Below, piece after piece: positions 6,899 through 47,775 of a DNA stretch of 64,000 bases; the stretch's first letter is position 1, and the number at the start of each line of letters is the position of its first letter. The notes beneath the pieces were generated by a model, which saw only the letters and a program-made list of their open reading frames with translations, ran no database searches and was not told where the DNA came from. Origin of the DNA: Brachypterus glaber. Its lineage: Eukaryota > Arthropoda > Insecta > Coleoptera > Kateretidae. Made by a program: the position numbers and the translations under genes. Location: positions 82,072,895 to 82,136,894 of the forward strand of contig OY294044.1 in assembly GCA_958510825.1 (NCBI GenBank). The letters run 5' to 3'.

Positions 6899-8560
6899 AT
6901 ACAGGAATATTCTTTTAAATGGTATAGTGCCTCTAACTTTCGAACGGCGTAAGATATCGACTTGAAATTTGGAACCGGCATACAACATAAAATAAAGCAT
7001 CTTTGGCTATAAACTAAATAGTTTTAATTTTTTTTCTATTTTGCGACTCATATATAAGCTCATAATCACACGCATTTTGCGTGTTCTTATAGGCCCATAA
7101 GAGGTCTGTACTTTTTGTTCTTTTGGGTTGGCAACAGACCTGGCCTATCGCTTGACGTTTTCCGTGCTATTGTAAATGTCGCTTTAAAGTTGAATTTTCT
7201 AAAAAAAAAATGTGTCTAGGTAATTTTTACCATGTTAAAATTGTGGCTTGGTTAATTGCAGTAAAAAAGAGAAGAGATGACTATAAAATATATCAAAATA
7301 TCATTTGTTCTTAGAATTTTAAACATGGTGTAAACTGTAATGCCAATCCAAAACAAAAATCCCTAAATCAGTCATCAATTTAAATGTAAGTTTTTTAAAA
7401 TTTTCGAGCAAAATAGAAAAAATTGTATTAATCACTCGTTTCATAACACGTTTTTAGCGCACGTGTACAAGTGCTATGAAAGTTTCATAATGGAACTAGT
7501 ACTTTAATATACTATGAAATAACACTAGGGGTGCGCTGGGGGCAAAATCCTAAATGGAAAGGGGGGTCGAGTGATACATCATTTAAAAGGTAATTAAATT
7601 GTCTATTCAAAGGTGTATTTATTTTTTGATTTTCGTTTAAATTGGATATATATTGAGCTTTTAAATTTTGGAAAGGCATCAATATATTACATTCCAATGT
7701 TATCGTCCAGGACGATTCGTCCTTTCTTAATATCTCCGAAACCAAGTAAATATTGAAATTCTACAAAAAAAGTAAATTTAATTTATCATTAGAGCAACTT
7801 ACATCTGTATATTTAAACATTATAAATTTTACCCCCATATCCCCAACTACCCCAACTCCAAAATCTTGAATAGCAACCCTCTAACTGTTATGTCATGTAT
7901 ATTAAGGGGTATCAAAAATGCTTTATGTTTGTACTAAAAAAAATTAATTGCTTTACCCCTTCTTACCCCGAGTTAATTTTAATAAAATTTTAATCTGCTC
8001 CCCAAGTAAGGGGTTGCTCAATAATATTTAATTTAATTTGATAATAAAGAACTGTATTTTCCCTTTAATTTAAGTGCATAAAAAGTGTATAAAAAGAGGG
8101 GGTTACTATCTAAGATTTTTATGTTGGGGTATGGCGTTAAAATTTATAACCTTAACTTATGCAGATTTGGATTGCCCTAATAATAAGTTAAATTGACCTA
8201 TTTTTTAGATTTTTAATATTAGACTTCATTCAGGAGTTATTAAGGGAGGATTGTCACATTCCATTAATGATTTATTAAAAATTTAAAACTAATTATAACC
8301 CTTCAGTATAACTTAAAATCAAAACATAAATACACTGTTGGATAGACAATTGTAAAACCTTTAAAATGATATGCCACACGACCACCCTTCTATTTAAAAT
8401 TTTGCCCTCCATCGCTCCCCTAGTGTTATTTTAAAATATAAAAATGTATAATTTACGTAAAAACATAGTTTGTATTATGCAATATACGACTTCAAAGTTT
8501 TAATTCAGTATCTTACGCCGTTTAAAAGTTAGAGGCACTGTTTAAAAGAATATTTCGTAT
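6899..8560. mobile_element. Inverted-repeat element, about 1.66 kb, interrupted by another element
   Basis: The left end TTCTTTTAAATGGTATAGTG, followed by CCTCTAACTTTCGAACGGCG, is mirrored at 8500-8558. Inner arms (7530-7600 and 8345-8410) match the GTCGTGTGATACATCATTTTAAA core seen in the CAG-ended elements. The stretch 7029-7425 belongs to a different repeat family and was probably inserted later. No coding region is present. Confidence 0.65.
7029..7520. mobile_element. TTTCTATTTTGC-ended element, copy 1
   Basis: It starts TTTCTATTTTGCGACTC and its main body ends GAGCAAAATAGAAAAAA (about 7425), so the ends are inverted. An accessory block follows (CACTCGTTTCATAACACG to CTTTAATATACTAT). The same body plus block, in the same order, is seen at 15070-15595 and 47397-47775. 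The body contains ATAAGCTCATAATCACACGC and AAATCCCTAAATC. It is non-coding. Confidence 0.65.
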
Positions 8561-9760: not shown

Positions 9761-9917
9761 TAGAAAATCTAGTTGTGTAAATTGAGTAACTGTTTACAAA
9801 CAATGCAGTTGTCAATGTTGACAATATTTGTCAAAATTATTTATAATAATTATAAAGTACATAATCAATAAAGGATTTTATTTAATTAAGTACATAATTA
9901 GAAATGCATCAATTAAT

Positions 9918-9945
9918 TGACGTCAACGTCAACGTCAACGTCAGC
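9918..9945 (+). promoter_or_regulatory. Tandem ACGTCA array containing a CRE-type octamer
   Basis: Four head-to-tail ACGTCA/ACGTCAG units begin with TGACGTCA at 9918-9925, the palindromic cAMP-response-element octamer bound by CREB/ATF factors. The array lies about 90 bp upstream of the first ATG of the retrotransposon chimera. A promoter role is an inference; it could also be a simple hexanucleotide repeat. Confidence 0.35.
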
Positions 9946-10033: not shown

Positions 10034-10600
10034 ATGGATGGTGGAGAATTCAGTGTTATTAAAAACAGCTTCAACGAAAACTCCAACTCGAAAACCTGTG
10101 ATAAATGTTCGTGTAACTTTTCATGCAACTGTAATCGGAAAACGAAGAAGTCGAGGAACAATAAATGGATTAATTGCCAGTCTTGCAAAAAATGGTTTCA
10201 TTTTATATGTGTGGGTATAACCAAAAAACCTAAAAAGTTCATCTGCGAAGAATGTTCAAAAGTGAATTCCGTTGAAGACCCTAACTGTAGTAACATTTTA
10301 GAACTTCTTTTAAAATTAAAAAGCAGAGGCAAAATTTTATCAAAAATTCCAAAAGGATCACGAGTTCTAGCTGCAGAAATTTACCTATATTGTATCAATG
10401 AAGTATTAGAAGACAATACAATTTTAGCTTGGAAAAAATTATTTTGTTTCGCTCATTTATGTTTAAAGATACCGTATAGAAGCAAAAAATATGATACCAC
10501 CTTAGCAAGTAAAGTCAACAACTTATTAAAAGATTTTCTGAACAATGATTTTCTTAATATTGAATTTGATAAAGAATGTTTCTCCAAAAAAGTAAAATAA
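10034..10600 (+). CDS. PHD-finger N-terminal segment of the retrotransposon chimera
   Basis: 188 codons ending at a TAA that is in frame with the next segment. Residues 22-74 form a PHD-type C4HC3 zinc finger: C22, C25, C48, C51, H56 (in WFHFIC), C59, C71, C74. Three extra Cys (27, 31, 33) lie in the first loop, and the aromatic WF before the His is typical. PHD fingers usually read histone H3 tails. In a retroelement this could guide integration or packaging, which is inference. The rest (75-188) is a lysine-rich helical region without a recognised domain. The region after the stop (10601-10663) continues in the same frame with plausible coding sequence, so the TAA looks like a single nonsense change rather than a natural end. 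Confidence 0.75.
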   Translation: MDGGEFSVIKNSFNENSNSKTCDKCSCNFSCNCNRKTKKSRNNKWINCQSCKKWFHFICVGITKKPKKFICEECSKVNSVEDPNCSNILELLLKLKSRGKILSKIPKGSRVLAAEIYLYCINEVLEDNTILAWKKLFCFAHLCLKIPYRSKKYDTTLASKVNNLLKDFLNNDFLNIEFDKECFSKKVK

Positions 10601-11794
10601 GGTAATTTATCTGACAGTGAAGATATTATTAAAGTTAATAAAGAAGATCTTAAAATAGCAAAATTGGTTTCAATGAAGCTTTCCGAATGTGATTTAAGTG
10701 GAGCTATAAAAATAGCTTGCACAGATGATAACCTTGCTACACCAAGTGAAGAAAATTTAGCTATTATGAGAGATAAACATCCCAGAAGAAGTGAAACCCT
10801 AATTTTACCAACAAATATAAACACCTGTAAGCCGTTACAAGTTAATGAAGAAAATGTTTTGTCTGCCATTAAAAGTTTTTCAAAAGGATCTAGTGCTGGT
10901 ATCGATGGAATTCGTCCACAACATTTAATTGATTTGGTTGACTCAAGAAACGGGGATATTGCCCAAAAATTGCTGCGCGGTTTAACTAAATTCGTAAACA
11001 AAATTCTAAAAGGAGATATACCTGGTTTCATTAAACCAATATTTTTTGGTGCTAATCTTTGTTCCTTAAAAAAGAAGGATGGAGGTTTAAGACCTATTGC
11101 TGTAGGAATAACAGTTCGTAGACTAGTCTCAAAATGTGCCATTGGGGGATCAATTAGATCACGTGCCGTTGACATTTTAAGTCCAACTCAAGTCGGTTTT
11201 GGCATATCAGGAGGAGCAGAAGCAGCTGTACATTCTTTGAGATCTATTATCAACTCCATAAAATCTAATAAGAGAGAAGTTATTCTAAAGGTAGATTTTA
11301 AAAACGCTTTTAATTTAATCAAGAGAGATGTCATATTAGATACTATAAATGAAACGTTTCCAGAATTATCCGAATATGTTTCTGCAAGTTACGGAGAAAT
11401 TTCAAATTTAATCTATGGCGATTCGATAATATTTTCAGAAGAAGGCATACAACAGGGTGACCCTATGGGGTCTTTTTTATTTTGTATGACATCCAAAAGT
11501 CTTTTTTTAAATTTAAAATACGATTTTAATGTATGGTTCCTAGATGACGGAACTCTAGTGGGAAGTCTGGATTCTGTAGCTGAGGACCTCTCTTTTTTAG
11601 AAAAAGAAGGTCCAAAATATGGTCTATACCTGAATAGAAGTAAATGTGAAATTTATAACCTCAACACTGAGCAAGAAAATATTTTCAGCCTCTTTAATGA
11701 TTTGAAACTTGTCTCCGAGGGAAATTTGGATTTACTAGGCGCCCCTATTGGCCCTTATTCGGAAAACATTATTTTACAAAAGAAAATCAATTAA
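10601..11794 (+). CDS. Reverse transcriptase segment of the retrotransposon chimera
   Basis: The open frame continues directly from the TAA at 10598 to the TAA at 11792; the first ATG is at 10664 (numbering from there, 376 aa). Reverse transcriptase motifs are in order: GLRPIAVG followed by RR (motif 2), LKVDFKNAFN with catalytic D211 (motif A), GIQQGDPMGS (motif B), FLDDG with D294 and D295 (motif C), GLYLNRSKCEIY (motif D) and LLGAPIG (motif E). All catalytic aspartates are intact. The RT acts on the element RNA, normally at the nicked target site. A 240-codon frame on the other strand (10453-11175) is a shadow. Confidence 0.85.
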   Translation, partial: GNLSDSEDIIKVNKEDLKIAKLVSMKLSECDLSGAIKIACTDDNLATPSEENLAIMRDKHPRRSETLILPTNINTCKPLQVNEENVLSAIKSFSKGSSAGIDGIRPQHLIDLVDSRNGDIAQKLLRGLTKFVNKILKGDIPGFIKPIFFGANLCSLKKKDGGLRPIAVGITVRRLVSKCAIGGSIRSRAVDILSPTQVGFGISGGAEAAVHSLRSIINSIKSNKREVILKVDFKNAFNLIKRDVILDTINETFPELSEYVSASYGEISNLIYGDSIIFSEEGIQQGDPMGSFLFCMTSKSLFLNLKYDFNVWFLDDGTLVGSLDSVAEDLSFLEKEGPKYGLYLNRSKCEIYNLNTEQENIFSLFNDLKLVSEGNLDLLGAPIGPYSENIILQKKIN

Positions 11795-11803
11795 TTAGAA
11801 TCT

Positions 11804-14149
11804 ATGAGTAAAAGACTACTTTTGTTAGAGCCCCACCAAGCATTTTTTCTTTTAAAAAATTGTATTTCAATTCCAAGACTTCAGTACCTTCTAAGATCAT
11901 CCCCTATCTATAATCACTCTCTTTTAATGCAATTTGATAATACTCTTCGCAAAAATCTTTCTGAAATTACCAATGTTAACTTTTCTGATATTCAGTGGTC
12001 TCAAGCCTCACTTCCCTGTCGACTTGGTGGCCTTGGTCTTCGCCTTTCAAGTGACCTAGCTCTACCAAGCTATATTTCCTCATTTAATTCTTGTCTGAAT
12101 CTCATAAATTCTCAATTAAGAAAATTTAATGACCTCAATTTAAATCTCGTGGATGACGCAATAAATATCTGGAAAATAAAAACCAACGCTGATATTCCTA
12201 CTACATCAAACCAATCTGCTTGGGACACTCCTCTTTTAGAAATAGCATCAAAACAAATAATTGAGTCCGCTTGTACTGAAAAGGATAAATCCCGAATGCA
12301 CGCAGTATGTCAAAAGGAAGCAAGCTACTGGTTGAATACTTTACCATCATCAAATCTGGGTTTACTTTTAAATAGAAACTTACTTAGAATAGCTATTAAT
12401 TTGAGAATGGGATCTACCAAAACTGTTGTCCACCATTTGTGTATTTGTGGTGAAAATGTTGATACATCTGGAACACATGGCCTCTCTTGTAGATATAGCA
12501 AAGGCAGATTATCTAGACACAAAGAAGTAAACAACCTAATAAAGAGAGCCTTAGCTATTATTGATCTACAACCTGTTTTAGAACCTCCAGGTTTAATGGC
12601 ACGAATCGATGGCAAAAGACCAGACGGAATGACTTTGGTTCCATTTAAAAGAGGGAAATGCTTGGTGTGGGACTTTACCTGTGTGGATACTGTGGCTCCC
12701 TCTTATCTTCATATTAACTCTGAAAAGGCTGGCTCTGCTGCAGAACGAGCAGAAAACATTAAGATCAAGAGATACAAATTTTTATCAACAGACTATGAAT
12801 TTGTTCCCATAGCTATTGAAACTTATGGTTCATATGGTCCAATCGCTAAGGCCTTTCTTAAAGACATTTGTAGACGCTTGGTAGATTCCACCGGCAACCC
12901 TTTGGAAGGTCTTTACTTTCTACAACGCATAAGTATGGCAATCCAAAGAGGTAATGCTATAAGTGCCTTGGGAACATTTGATAATGATTCTGAAATGAAC
13001 GATGATAAATTATACAACACCAACAACAGTTTAAATTACAGTGATATTGAGGATAACAGCGAGAAAAACTATATCACAAACAATAAGCCAGAGGTCGGAA
13101 GTCCAGTCAAAACTCTGGGTCTTAAAGGGTTAAAAAATATCGGAAATACCTGTTTCATGAACTCGGTCATTACATGCCTTTCGAACACGAAACTTTTGTT
13201 GGAATACTTAAAGAAGGACAGCTATATGCAGGACATCAACACCAATATATCAGGTATGCATGGAGCTTTAATTAAGACATTTGCCGATGTGATAAAACAG
13301 TTGTGGTCAGAAGATTTATCTGAACGGGTAGTAAACACGGTCTCTTTCAAGAGCCAAATCCAGATTTTCGTCCCCCAATTTACAGACTACAAACAACAGG
13401 ACGCACAAGAATTTCTGCGGTACCTTTTAGAGGGACTTCACGAGGACGTTAACAGGGTAACGGAAAAACCTAAACCTATTTTTACCAAAATAGATGAAAA
13501 ATTAACTGATAATGAAAAATCTGCCGAATCATGGTCCAGATACCTCCGGATGGACGACTCTCGCATTTTGGACCTCTTCGTCGGACAACTGAAATCCACC
13601 CTCAAATGCACCTATTGCAGACATGGTTCCGTCACATTCGAACCATTCTGGGACCTTTCTCTCTCTCTTCCACAACACATCGATCAATTAAGTTTATCAC
13701 ATTGTTTGGAATCCTTCACACGGGAAGAATCGTTGGACGGTGATGAAAAACCTACATGTTCTAAATGCAAAAAGCGCAGAAAATGCACAAAATTCTTTAG
13801 AATTCAAAAATTCCCAAAAATATTAGTAATTCACCTTAAACGCTTCTCCCCGATGACACAGTTTCAAAGTAAGCTCAAAGTCACCGTAGACTTCCCCCTA
13901 GAAGAATTAGATATGAGCAATTATGCAGCAGAGTCCGTTGCACCCTCCAAATACAACTTATACGTCATTTCAAATCACAGTGGTACCACGTATAGCGGAC
14001 ACTACACCGCCTATTGTAAACATCCCTATAATCATACGTGGCACGAATACAACGACTCTAGGGTATCTTCAATTTCACCAACATCCATCGTATCAGGGAA
14101 TGCTTACATATTATTGTACGAACAAGAAAGTCAAAAATCATATACTTGA
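11804..14149 (+). CDS. Endonuclease-USP fusion segment, 781 aa uninterrupted
   Basis: This is in the same frame as the RT segment, separated only by TAA 11792. Residues 1-210 are the RT thumb and linker (an AFFLLKNC...PRL region). Residues 213-229 give a CCHC knuckle (C213, C215, H225, C229), followed by RPDG (D274) and VWDFTCVD (D290), the signature of the restriction-like endonuclease that nicks target DNA. An acidic, Asn-rich linker (about 394-430) joins this to a USP domain at 437-775. USP residues: catalytic C450 in GNTCFMNS, QQDAQEF at 531, zinc-binding C602/C605 and C652/C655, catalytic H733 in SGHYTAYC and N750 in YNDSRV. The His-Asn spacing is as in USP2. The USP should cleave ubiquitin from substrates. 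It is intronless and uninterrupted, unlike the upstream part. Confidence 0.85.
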   Translation: MSKRLLLLEPHQAFFLLKNCISIPRLQYLLRSSPIYNHSLLMQFDNTLRKNLSEITNVNFSDIQWSQASLPCRLGGLGLRLSSDLALPSYISSFNSCLNLINSQLRKFNDLNLNLVDDAINIWKIKTNADIPTTSNQSAWDTPLLEIASKQIIESACTEKDKSRMHAVCQKEASYWLNTLPSSNLGLLLNRNLLRIAINLRMGSTKTVVHHLCICGENVDTSGTHGLSCRYSKGRLSRHKEVNNLIKRALAIIDLQPVLEPPGLMARIDGKRPDGMTLVPFKRGKCLVWDFTCVDTVAPSYLHINSEKAGSAAERAENIKIKRYKFLSTDYEFVPIAIETYGSYGPIAKAFLKDICRRLVDSTGNPLEGLYFLQRISMAIQRGNAISALGTFDNDSEMNDDKLYNTNNSLNYSDIEDNSEKNYITNNKPEVGSPVKTLGLKGLKNIGNTCFMNSVITCLSNTKLLLEYLKKDSYMQDINTNISGMHGALIKTFADVIKQLWSEDLSERVVNTVSFKSQIQIFVPQFTDYKQQDAQEFLRYLLEGLHEDVNRVTEKPKPIFTKIDEKLTDNEKSAESWSRYLRMDDSRILDLFVGQLKSTLKCTYCRHGSVTFEPFWDLSLSLPQHIDQLSLSHCLESFTREESLDGDEKPTCSKCKKRRKCTKFFRIQKFPKILVIHLKRFSPMTQFQSKLKVTVDFPLEELDMSNYAAESVAPSKYNLYVISNHSGTTYSGHYTAYCKHPYNHTWHEYNDSRVSSISPTSIVSGNAYILLYEQESQKSYT
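13117..14149 (+). other. USP2-like catalytic domain (captured host gene)
   Basis: About 340 residues spanning a whole USP fold. Blocks typical of the USP2/USP21 group are seen: GALIKTF, the long QQDAQEFLRYLLEGLHEDVN block, ESWSRYLRMDDS, DLFVGQLKS and FPKILVIHLKRFSPM. Length and order match a complete catalytic core, and the N-terminal regulatory region of a cellular USP2 is absent. The lack of introns, with the AATAAA/A12 end, points to capture of a spliced mRNA. The junction at about 12980-13110 shows no polypyrimidine tract that would mark a spliced exon start. Confidence 0.8.
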
Positions 14150-14302
14150 ATAGTTTATTTATTTCTTTTTTTTTTTTACTTATTTGTTACTATTATTTAA
14201 CTTGATTGTTAATTATTTTTTTTTAATTAATATGTATATTTATATTAATTTTATTGTAAAAAATAGTACTAATAAAACTTTCTTCACTAGAAAAAAAAAA
14301 AA
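14150..14302 (+). other. 3' UTR, poly(A) signal and poly(A) tract of the chimera
   Basis: 141 bp of T-rich sequence follow the stop. AATAAA lies at 14271-14276 and an uninterrupted A12 at 14291-14302, a spacing of 14 nt. A signal at this distance before an encoded A tract is the usual mark of a retrotransposed polyadenylated RNA. Confidence 0.65.
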
Positions 14303-14608
14303 TGATGTTAAGAAAGCTCAAGCTATTGGGTTATTGGAAGCAGGATGTGAGCAAGTAGACTTGGCAAAGTTTAATGATTCGGAGAGTTTTTTTAAGATTG
14401 AAGAAAAAATGGATACAGGAGGAAACGGTTAAAAGGCGTGCAGGCTCGGGAAGAAGGAAGTGAAAATTTACTTAATTATTTAAGAGAACACCTTTTACGA
14501 GACGCGGTAGCCTGCATAAAGGATAAAAATTTTGCTGGATCGAAAACCACCGCCCGCCGCCGCATCGATAATTCCAAGATTCGAAAATTTTATGCATCAA
14601 AAAAAAAC
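14301..14608 (+). pseudogene. Tc1-like transposase, DNA-binding domain remnant
   Basis: From 14301 the frame reads KKAQAIGLLEAG and continues to KMDTGG, a first helix-turn-helix of the Tc1/mariner (IS630) kind. After a +1 shift at about 14410 a second frame gives ENLLNYLREH, RDAV and GSKTTARRRI, the second helix-turn-helix region of Tc1-like transposases of insects. It stops near 14608; the catalytic DDE part is absent. At least one frameshift and the missing C-terminus make it dead. Its start touches the poly(A) of the upstream chimera, so the chimera may have inserted into this element near its transposase start. Confidence 0.75.
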
Positions 14609-15069
14609 CTTTTTTAAACGAAAATCATAATTTTCATCAATTATATATTAAGGAATTCAAAGTTCAAAGTTTTATTTTCCATAAGATTTACTAAATATTG
14701 TGTTTAAATGTTTTATATGATTAAATATTCTAAATGTTTTTTCAGTTTATTATTTATTATATTTGGACCCGGAGTAAACGAAACCATGTCACAAAAACGT
14801 AATTTTTCAGGAAAGCATGTTTTTGATTCTTTTTTAACATTAAATGCATGTTCTAGGGGCTCTCCATTCATTTTACAAAGAAGAAGGAATAATAACATAA
14901 AAATAACCATCTTGCTTCTGCAGATCTGGAACCTCTATATTTGCTAGTTTTCTATTTCTTCCAGCTTCATATACCAGGAGTTACTGTTATACTAATAAAC
15001 TTAAAGAAAAACTGCCAATATGTCAAATTATTCTCTTTCTTAAAATCTTACTTAAACTATAAAATAATT
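14609..15069. other. AT-rich sequence, nothing recognised
   Basis: No gene supported. GGGGCTCTCCATTC at 14857-14870 resembles 45727-45740, suggesting a small shared repeat. Confidence 0.3.
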
Positions 15070-15595
15070 TTTCTATTTTGCGACTCTTATAATCTCATAA
15101 TCACACGCATTTTGCGAGTTCTTATAGGCCCATAAGAGGTCTCTACTTTTTTTTCTTTTGGTTTGGCAACAGACAAAAGTCTATCTCTTGACGTTTGCCG
15201 TGCAATTGTGAATGTCGTTAAAGTTTAATTTTCTACAAAATTTTGTGTTTAGGTTATGTTTACCGTGTTAAAATTGTGACTTGGTTACTTACAGTGGAAA
15301 AGAGAAGAAATGACTATAAAATATATGAAAATAATATTCGTTCTTAGAATTTTAAACATGGCGAAAACTGTAATGCCAATTCGAAACAAAAATCCCTAAA
15401 TCAATCATCAATTTAAATGTAAGTTTTTTAAAATTTTAGAGCAAAATAGAAAAAATTGTATAAAGCACTCGTTTCATAACACGTTTTTAGCGCACTAGTA
15501 CTTTAAAAAACTCACCGCAAGCGGCTCGTTTTCTAAACTTGTACTCGTGCGCTAAAAACGTATGTTATGAAACTAGTACTTTAATATACTATAAT
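15070..15595. mobile_element. TTTCTATTTTGC-ended element, copy 2
   Basis: Same body and accessory block as at 7029-7520 with modest divergence. Here the accessory block carries an extra palindrome: GTTTCATAACACGTTTTTAG at 15471 pairs with CTAAAAACGTATGTTATGAAAC ending near 15572. Confidence 0.7.
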
Positions 15596-47396: not shown

Positions 47397-47775
47397 TTTT
47401 TCTATTTTGCGACTCTTATAAGCTCATAATCACACGCATTTTGCGTGTTCTTATAGGCCTATAAGAGGTTTGTAGTTTGTGTTAAAATTGTGGTTTGGTT
47501 ACTTGCAGTGAAAAAGAGAAGAGCTGACTATAAAAAATATCAAAATATCGTTTTTTCTATGAATTTCAAATATGAGAAAATTGTAATGCCAACTCAAAAC
47601 TAAAATCCCTAAATCGGTCATCAATTTAAATGTAAGTTTTTTTAAATTTTAGAGCAAAATAGAAAAAATAATATAAAGCACTCGTTTCATAACACTCGTT
47701 TTTAGCGCACGAGTACAAGTTTCGAAAACGAGCCGCTCGCGGCGAGTTTTCTAAAGTACTAGTACTTTAATATAC
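47397..47775. mobile_element. TTTCTATTTTGC-ended element, copy 3 (internally deleted)
   Basis: Same ends and order as 7029-7520 and 15070-15595, but about 110 bp of the body after ATAAGAGGTTTGTAG are missing. The accessory block with CGTTTTTAGCGCACGAGTAC is retained. Confidence 0.7.

Follow-up and report, generated by a model that had tools for sequence, protein, structure and literature searches.

An R2-like retrotransposon family in the beetle Brachypterus glaber that probably carries the catalytic domain of the host deubiquitinase Usp2

A 64,000-nucleotide stretch of the genome of the beetle Brachypterus glaber (contig OY294044.1, positions 82,072,895 to 82,136,894; hereafter the window) contains a retrotransposon whose coding frame leads into a complete ubiquitin-specific protease (USP). 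We interpret this element, with a probability of about 0.9, as a member of an R2-like family of non-long-terminal-repeat (non-LTR) retrotransposons with a restriction-like endonuclease (RLE), in which a PHD-reverse transcriptase (RT)-RLE protein has acquired the catalytic domain of the host Usp2 gene at its C-terminus. This reading is based on sequence and combines five lines of evidence: the fused unit is multicopy, its USP is intronless and under purifying selection, other families in the same genome carry the same module, and relatives in other arthropods carry USPs of other subfamilies.

The original prediction had described an uninterrupted frame at 10034-14149. The parts it named were all recovered on the forward strand in the order PHD, RT, RLE and USP, including the CCHC and RPD...D signature of the endonuclease and the USP catalytic residues and CxxC pairs. 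The frame itself, however, is broken by two in-frame TAA codons, leaving its final 781 codons (11804-14146) open, and the element is larger than had been proposed, extending from tandem ACGTCA repeats at about 9920 to an A12 tail ending at 14302. Its features, with the window copy's own family designated family 1, are:

9920-9943, forward strand: 5' end of the element with tandem ACGTCA repeats; 7 of the 17 fetched family-1 copies begin matching at 9912-9934
10034-10597, forward strand: N-terminal part with PHD finger (PF00628, 27.2 bits, cut-off 24)
10598-10600, forward strand: in-frame stop TAA, not in copy L010
10601-11791, forward strand: reverse transcriptase, FLDD at 11537-11548 (PF00078, RVT_1, 53.8 bits)
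11792-11794, forward strand: second in-frame stop TAA, not in L010
11795-12994, forward strand: C-terminal part of the RT, CCHC knuckle and RLE, RPDG at 12617-12628 (motifs, AlphaFold model)
13018-13114, forward strand: host-derived Usp2 stretch 5' of the catalytic domain, capture junction at about 13018 (host exon match, family-2 DNA match, GC content at third codon positions)
13115-14149, forward strand: complete USP2-type deubiquitinase domain and stop codon (PF00443, UCH, 222.9 bits)
14150-14290, forward strand: AT-rich 3' untranslated region, AATAAA at 14271
14291-14302, forward strand: A12 tail, 3' end of the window copy

In an alignment of 56 RT-RLE rows, the Asp-Asp columns of the RT were conserved in 56 of 56 and the Asp columns of the RLE in 54 of 54. 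The window copy retains the RLE motifs RPDG and WD and has its CCHC knuckle in the form CxC...H..C. When the RLE was modelled alone with AlphaFold (pLDDT 92.1), a structure search ranked R2 chains 1-7 (E<=5.2e-8), the next match having an E of 0.44. Motifs, fold, and the dispersed, 5'-truncated copies described below place the element among the RLE-type non-LTR retrotransposons. The N-terminal piece matched solely PHD families, with no match to an N-terminal Ulp1-like protease; the protease of this element is the C-terminal UCH domain. That domain covers positions 2-254 of the 254-position profile and retains Cys450 (GNTCF), His733 (SGHY), Asn750 (EYND) and both CxxC zinc pairs, as expected of a peptidase C19 member. 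Compared with solved structures in the PDB it scored best against USP2 (380 bits), ahead of USP15 (297) and USP21 (286). A model of all 781 residues (mean pLDDT 88.5, pTM 0.60, linker 397-437 below 50) aligned with USP2-ubiquitin complexes at a TM of 0.95 by target length. The window USP is thereby a predicted deubiquitinase with its catalytic residues and a USP2 fold.

A six-frame search with the 781-residue open reading frame over the 648-Mb assembly returned at least 79 matches, place counts here being lower bounds tallied from the match table. At least 41 matches had an identity of at least 90% and lay at 39 places (window included, three neighbouring matches on contig C5 counted apart), and at 36 of these 39 the RLE-USP junction was crossed within one match. 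At least 19 further places showed a USP at 73-77% identity, each adjoining an RLE match of 50-62%. The additional junction-bearing copies for which the original prediction had proposed a search are therefore abundant. All 17 fetched family-1 copies (window excluded) were 98.2-99.2% identical to the window at the DNA level; ten of them begin further in than the 5' end, which we took as 5' truncation, and matches stop at 14245 to 14286. L010 has an uninterrupted frame of 1377 codons in which UCH and RVT_1 pass their cut-offs, whereas PHD, at 19.3 bits, falls short of its threshold of 24.

Target-site marks were worked out for L010, L011 and the window copy. The L010 insertion, 4338 bp long, interrupts a dispersed repeat from which 4 bp are missing at the insertion point; three empty copies of this target repeat lie in the window (15344-15540, 7311-7468 and 47561-47729). 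An 8-bp target site duplication, CCTAATGA, borders L011 on both sides, and the L011 match starts at 9920, three bases past the duplication. For the window copy a flank search gave no duplication above chance, and no fixed target was evident among the fetched copies. High copy identity, empty sites and target duplication are marks of recent retrotransposition, and their occurrence here indicates that the fused unit has moved as such.

Some further features of these copies were seen. The dispersed repeat lies in the window at 7031-7468, 15068-15501 and 47479-47755 in copies 84-89% identical, L010 being inserted in another copy. At G000:C5:307570-313290 the last two of three neighbouring family-1 matches are 1761 bp apart and cover the same residues, 47-525, which suggests a local tandem duplication. 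A match on contig C593 consists of open stretches of 1023 and 416 codons with stops in between.

The source of the USP was sought in the host genome. Host Usp2 was located through its N-terminal exons on contig C18; the window is on C1, ruling out a host Usp2 exon that merely lies beside an element. Consistent with this, two beetle Usp2 proteins match the window solely within 13031-14143. The host catalytic domain is encoded by six exons separated by five introns, which when joined give a clean domain of 344 codons, and all five introns are absent from the element. Upstream of the domain, the window stretch from about 13018 is 78.6% identical over 28 aa to the host exon at L038 1263-1346 and then continues with GSPVKT, which the following host exon (L038 3893) also encodes, so that a host exon junction is crossed. 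The DNA match of family 2 to the window also starts at 13018, and GC content at third codon positions rises from 0.27 in the RLE to 0.475 for the linker and 0.436 for the USP domain. Phylogenetically, the USPs of families 1-3 fell together with host Usp2 in a single clade (support 97), separate from other beetles. Because five host introns are missing and the captured piece crosses a further exon junction upstream, the sequences point to Usp2 mRNA as the origin of the domain, in agreement with that prediction.

Two other families in this genome carry the module. Family 2 (L026, L027 and L035) is open for 1495 codons in each copy; in family 3 (L028) the USP is open and stops separate it from the RT-RLE frame. 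Family 2 carries about 126 aa of Usp2 sequence upstream of the catalytic domain, family 1 about 32, and the family-1 stretch falls inside that of family 2. By the NG86 method, synonymous divergence (dS) of the USP was 0.49 between families 1 and 2, 0.46 between 1 and 3 and 0.50 between 2 and 3, compared with 0.76, 0.77 and 0.97 between host and families. For RT-RLE it was 2.07 (families 1-2) and 2.25 (families 2-3) and undefined for families 1-3, values that saturation makes rough. Since USP dS is about 0.5 and RT-RLE dS about 2, the captured module appears younger than the split of the backbones. The simplest account is probably a single capture followed by movement of the USP module between backbones. 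Three independent captures, for instance from an unseen Usp2 copy, would explain why the captured lengths differ; however, the element USPs diverge less among themselves than from the host gene and are mutual sisters (support 94), and the shorter stretch is nested in the longer one, all of which makes separate captures the less likely account. The N-terminus also varies between families, because at the place of the family-1 PHD finger (window 10034-10597) family 2 (L026) has a C2H2-like finger by eye and gave no PHD match in Pfam. Separately, a search through the Usp2 upstream region found L033 (G000:C15:39386179-39389493), an RLE-USP piece with 64.8% DNA identity to the window over the RLE and 80-82% over USP parts, which is possibly a further family.

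We also asked how the element-borne USP has evolved. Omega of the USP between families was 0.265 (bootstrap 95% 0.19-0.38), 0.239 (0.15-0.37) and 0.222 (0.16-0.33); within family 1 it was 0.26-0.46, from very few changes. Relative to the nearest other beetle Usp2, the window USP differs at 22 of 197 beetle-invariant columns and 46 of 138 variable columns (Fisher 9.7e-7). In a simple simulation, random change to 20% protein divergence produced about 4 stops per 344 codons, with 1% of runs stop-free; the window USP has zero stops. These patterns indicate purifying selection on the element-borne USP.

Relatives in other arthropods were collected in three protein searches, the best 120 of each list giving 352 proteins, of which 237 matched the RT-RLE profile. 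A USP profile match was present in 29 of the 237, which is not an unbiased rate because two of the three queries contained a USP. A Cys box was found in 27 of the 29 (25 by pattern, 2 by eye). The fused proteins were sorted by mutual similarity and best solved relative, with P0217, P0211, P0132, P0127, P0123, P0125 and the window compared directly with the PDB and the others assigned by similarity. The USP2 class comprises P0001, P0008, P0044, P0064, P0073, P0121, P0126, P0158 and P0168 together with the Phaedon models P0003 and P0055. P0123 (USP8 307 bits, USP15 257, USP2 212), P0146 and P0164 form a USP8 class; P0125 and P0127 (165 and 168 bits, USP2 at most 64), P0130, P0131 and P0165 a USP35 class; and P0132 (167 bits, next other family 58) and P0133 a USP30 class. 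Class C (P0217, P0174, P0128; best matches USP8 at 234 and USP15 at 221 bits), class E (P0211, P0138, P0144, P0173; USP28 at 58 bits) and P0171 were left without a subfamily name. Among the hosts, Amphibalanus amphitrite (a barnacle) and Phaedon cochleariae (a beetle) are named; 'crustacean-type' and 'barnacle-type' are our own labels. The linker and USP of P0001 recur at 99.2% over 399 aa in P0145 on another Amphibalanus contig, a second copy or a haplotype of the same region. Thus, relatives include USPs of subfamilies that the original prediction had not foreseen, nor had it anticipated that the module seems to move between backbones.

USP-less relatives end a median of 13 aa past the RLE (208 proteins, some perhaps cut). 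Where the tail reaches at least 250 aa, 26 of 29 proteins hold a USP, and the other three have no enzyme recognised by Pfam. A short C-terminal motif around DPELARYL is common to ten USP-less RT-RLE proteins (P0134, P0136, P0137, P0154, P0155, P0169, P0170, P0175, P0178 and P0181), at the place that the USP occupies in close relatives; Pfam gave no match on five of these tails (P0136, P0137, P0175, P0178, P0134). A second motif, around PWGQLFGAR, occurs in the USP-less P0135, P0139, P0140, P0153, P0177 and P0228. Pfam searches of non-USP tails (nine proteins; four tails) led nowhere, as did scans of viral contigs with P0121 and of genome contigs with the window reading frame. Some other relatives list PF02037 or PF02257, presumably SAP and RFX domains, and one carries the source name SLACS.

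Phylogenetic analysis argues that fusion occurred repeatedly. In the 56-row RT-RLE tree the fused elements were scattered, and a single clade of all 20 fused rows was rejected by the approximately unbiased (AU) test (5.8e-8). In a tree of these 20 rows, a single clade was likewise rejected for the five USP2-class rows (p 9e-10), the USP35 class (2e-65) and class E (1.4e-4). Close RT-RLE backbones carry different tails: P0155, whose tail has the DPELARYL motif, shares 86% identity with P0123 (USP8) over 610 aa and 85% with P0211 (class E) over 519 aa, and P0164 (USP8) shares 84% with P0137 (DPELARYL) over 561 aa. Among the USPs, modules of the USP2 class track their hosts: four barnacle-type modules grouped with Amphibalanus Usp2 (support 100; gene P0185, regarded as the host gene because it is so named and shows no RT match), the Phaedon element USPs with Phaedon's own Usp2 (95 in one tree, 94 in another), and the window USP, as above, with its own beetle gene. 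One clade of all ten USP2-class fused USPs was rejected (AU 2.9e-8). These results support separate captures of Usp2 in B. glaber and in barnacle-type elements and, weakly, in Phaedon.

Several observations weigh against our interpretation or parts of it. The window copy has two stops, and the Cys region is missing from both Phaedon gene models. One clade of the window and the two Phaedon element USPs had an AU p of 0.243 with the own host gene left out, and one of families 1-3 plus the Phaedon USPs a p of 0.047 with the own host gene and families 2 and 3 included; the separation of the B. glaber families from Phaedon is therefore weakly supported. The RLE-only tree does not reject the window and the two Phaedon elements as one clade (p 0.064), and a clade of crustacean-type USP2 modules apart from the Amphibalanus gene was not rejected (p 0.074). 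Gain and loss changes numbered 10 on two of the RT trees and 14 on another, counts that are unsafe and inexact, since contig ends may have truncated some of the 'unfused' rows. Finally, none of the best 120 of the 770 relatives nearest the window's RLE shows UCH in the Pfam column; thus, USP fusion is rare among the closest RLE relatives.

Could the fusion be an isolated accident or an artefact? The original prediction had left the choice between a one-off retrogene and a new element lineage, and the many copies with the same junction favour the lineage. A dying element joined once to a Usp2 retrocopy, and decaying since, would account for the stops in the window copy and for an intronless USP with AATAAA and an A12 tail, but it is contradicted by the 39 places, by frames open for 1377 and 1495 codons and by purifying selection; a single-copy retrogene is rejected by the 36 places at which the junction is crossed, and the chance that such an event explains the data is negligible. 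An assembly error or gene-model artefact is just as improbable. Some relatives (Phaedon, Amphibalanus) are indeed gene models; however, the junction is read in genomic DNA on many contigs, inside continuous open frames, and one insertion (L010) has empty sites. With single matches spanning the junction at 36 of 39 places, one isolated mis-join is ruled out, and an assembly error was rejected on the same ground of many independent places.

For a retrotransposon lineage that has captured host Usp2, we infer template switching as the route. Reverse transcription may have started on polyadenylated Usp2 mRNA and then jumped to element RNA immediately past the endonuclease, which would give the order seen, element 5' and host 3'. 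The fused protein would move by target-primed reverse transcription, and the USP would, as our first choice, remove ubiquitin from the element's own protein or ribonucleoprotein, a role to which we give about even odds. Constant across the relatives is a C-terminal USP catalytic domain; the source gene varies. The element takes little beyond the catalytic domain, and domains of several USP subfamilies fill this place; both point to generic deubiquitination rather than action on one host substrate. That related elements have other deubiquitinases at the same position suggests that ubiquitin removal benefits their survival. The main rival is that the USP acts on chromatin, the PHD finger reading histone H3 while the USP strips histone ubiquitin at the insertion site. 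The window copy does have a PHD finger (a weaker one is present in L010), and the USP model resembles USP21 on an H2AK119ub nucleosome (entry 9ny4). Family 2, however, has kept its USP under selection with no PHD match, and relatives carry USP30- and USP35-type modules, which are not known as histone enzymes, so that we regard a chromatin role as the less likely one, though still worth weighing. Alternatively, the USP might be an idle passenger, picked up by chance close to the 3' end. This would fit its position, which is the one expected after template switching onto a host mRNA, and the existence of unfused relatives that end shortly past the RLE. An omega of 0.22-0.27 between families at a USP dS of about 0.5, the same enzyme class drawn from different subfamilies and the predominance of USPs among long tails make this very improbable. 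More broadly, it seems reasonably likely that the position C-terminal to the RLE serves as an exchangeable slot, repeatedly filled with USP2, USP8, USP30, USP35/38-type and other host USP domains, swapped between backbones, or occupied by DPELARYL or PWGQLFGAR modules.

Elsewhere in the window, broken frames past the A12 tail (14303-14600) resemble the start of a transposase, which we take to be of the Tc1 type; given this flank, the window copy may sit inside an older DNA transposon. Genes for tRNA-Val and tRNA-Met lie on the reverse strand at 1458-1531 and 1687-1761.

Known mobile elements share parts of this architecture. RLE-bearing non-LTR clades are CRE, R2, R4, NeSL and HERO (PMC4640811). 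Like R2-group elements, the B. glaber element has a single protein in which an N-terminal finger precedes RT, CCHC and RLE, and its RLE model matches R2 chains; unlike them, it ends in a USP, and its fetched copies show no evident fixed target. Nematode NeSL and one Utopia element are RLE retrotransposons with a ubiquitin/SUMO-type cysteine protease, but this is Ulp1 rather than USP and N-terminal rather than C-terminal, and repeated host-gene capture is not described in the passages on these elements (PMC4640811). Ginger1 DNA transposases end in an OTU or Ulp1 domain, and the same paper mentions a Peptidase C19 domain in a T. vaginalis transposase (PMC2836005). There a deubiquitinase or SUMO protease is joined to a transposition enzyme, in T. 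vaginalis even of the USP class; these are, however, DNA transposases without RT and RLE, with a single USP example in the account given. Helentrons contain frames homologous to OTU proteases (PMC4067079), and so are mobile elements with a deubiquitinase-class gene, but they are described there as rolling-circle DNA elements with the protease as an additional frame. Host Usp2 itself, the apparent source of the domain and in one clade with it, differs in having introns and N-terminal exons absent from the element. Among the open PMC papers listed, at most 20 for each full-text search and some searches having hundreds or thousands of hits, none describes a non-LTR retrotransposon with a USP; the coverage does not extend to subscription papers or Repbase reports. 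We therefore place the fused unit with a known kind, mobile elements bearing a ubiquitin protease, to which it adds a new element class, a new protease class and repeated capture.

Ubiquitin and SUMO proteases recur in several unrelated transposons. The B. glaber family offers a clear case in which a non-LTR retrotransposon appears to have recruited a host enzyme domain and kept it under selection. If the C-terminus is indeed an exchangeable slot, this would imply a standing conflict in which arthropod hosts tag retrotransposon proteins with ubiquitin and the elements remove the tag. Whether ubiquitin restricts arthropod retrotransposons, and whether a captured deubiquitinase lifts the restriction, is a testable question, since close backbones carry different modules and a young family, its source gene and empty sites share one genome.

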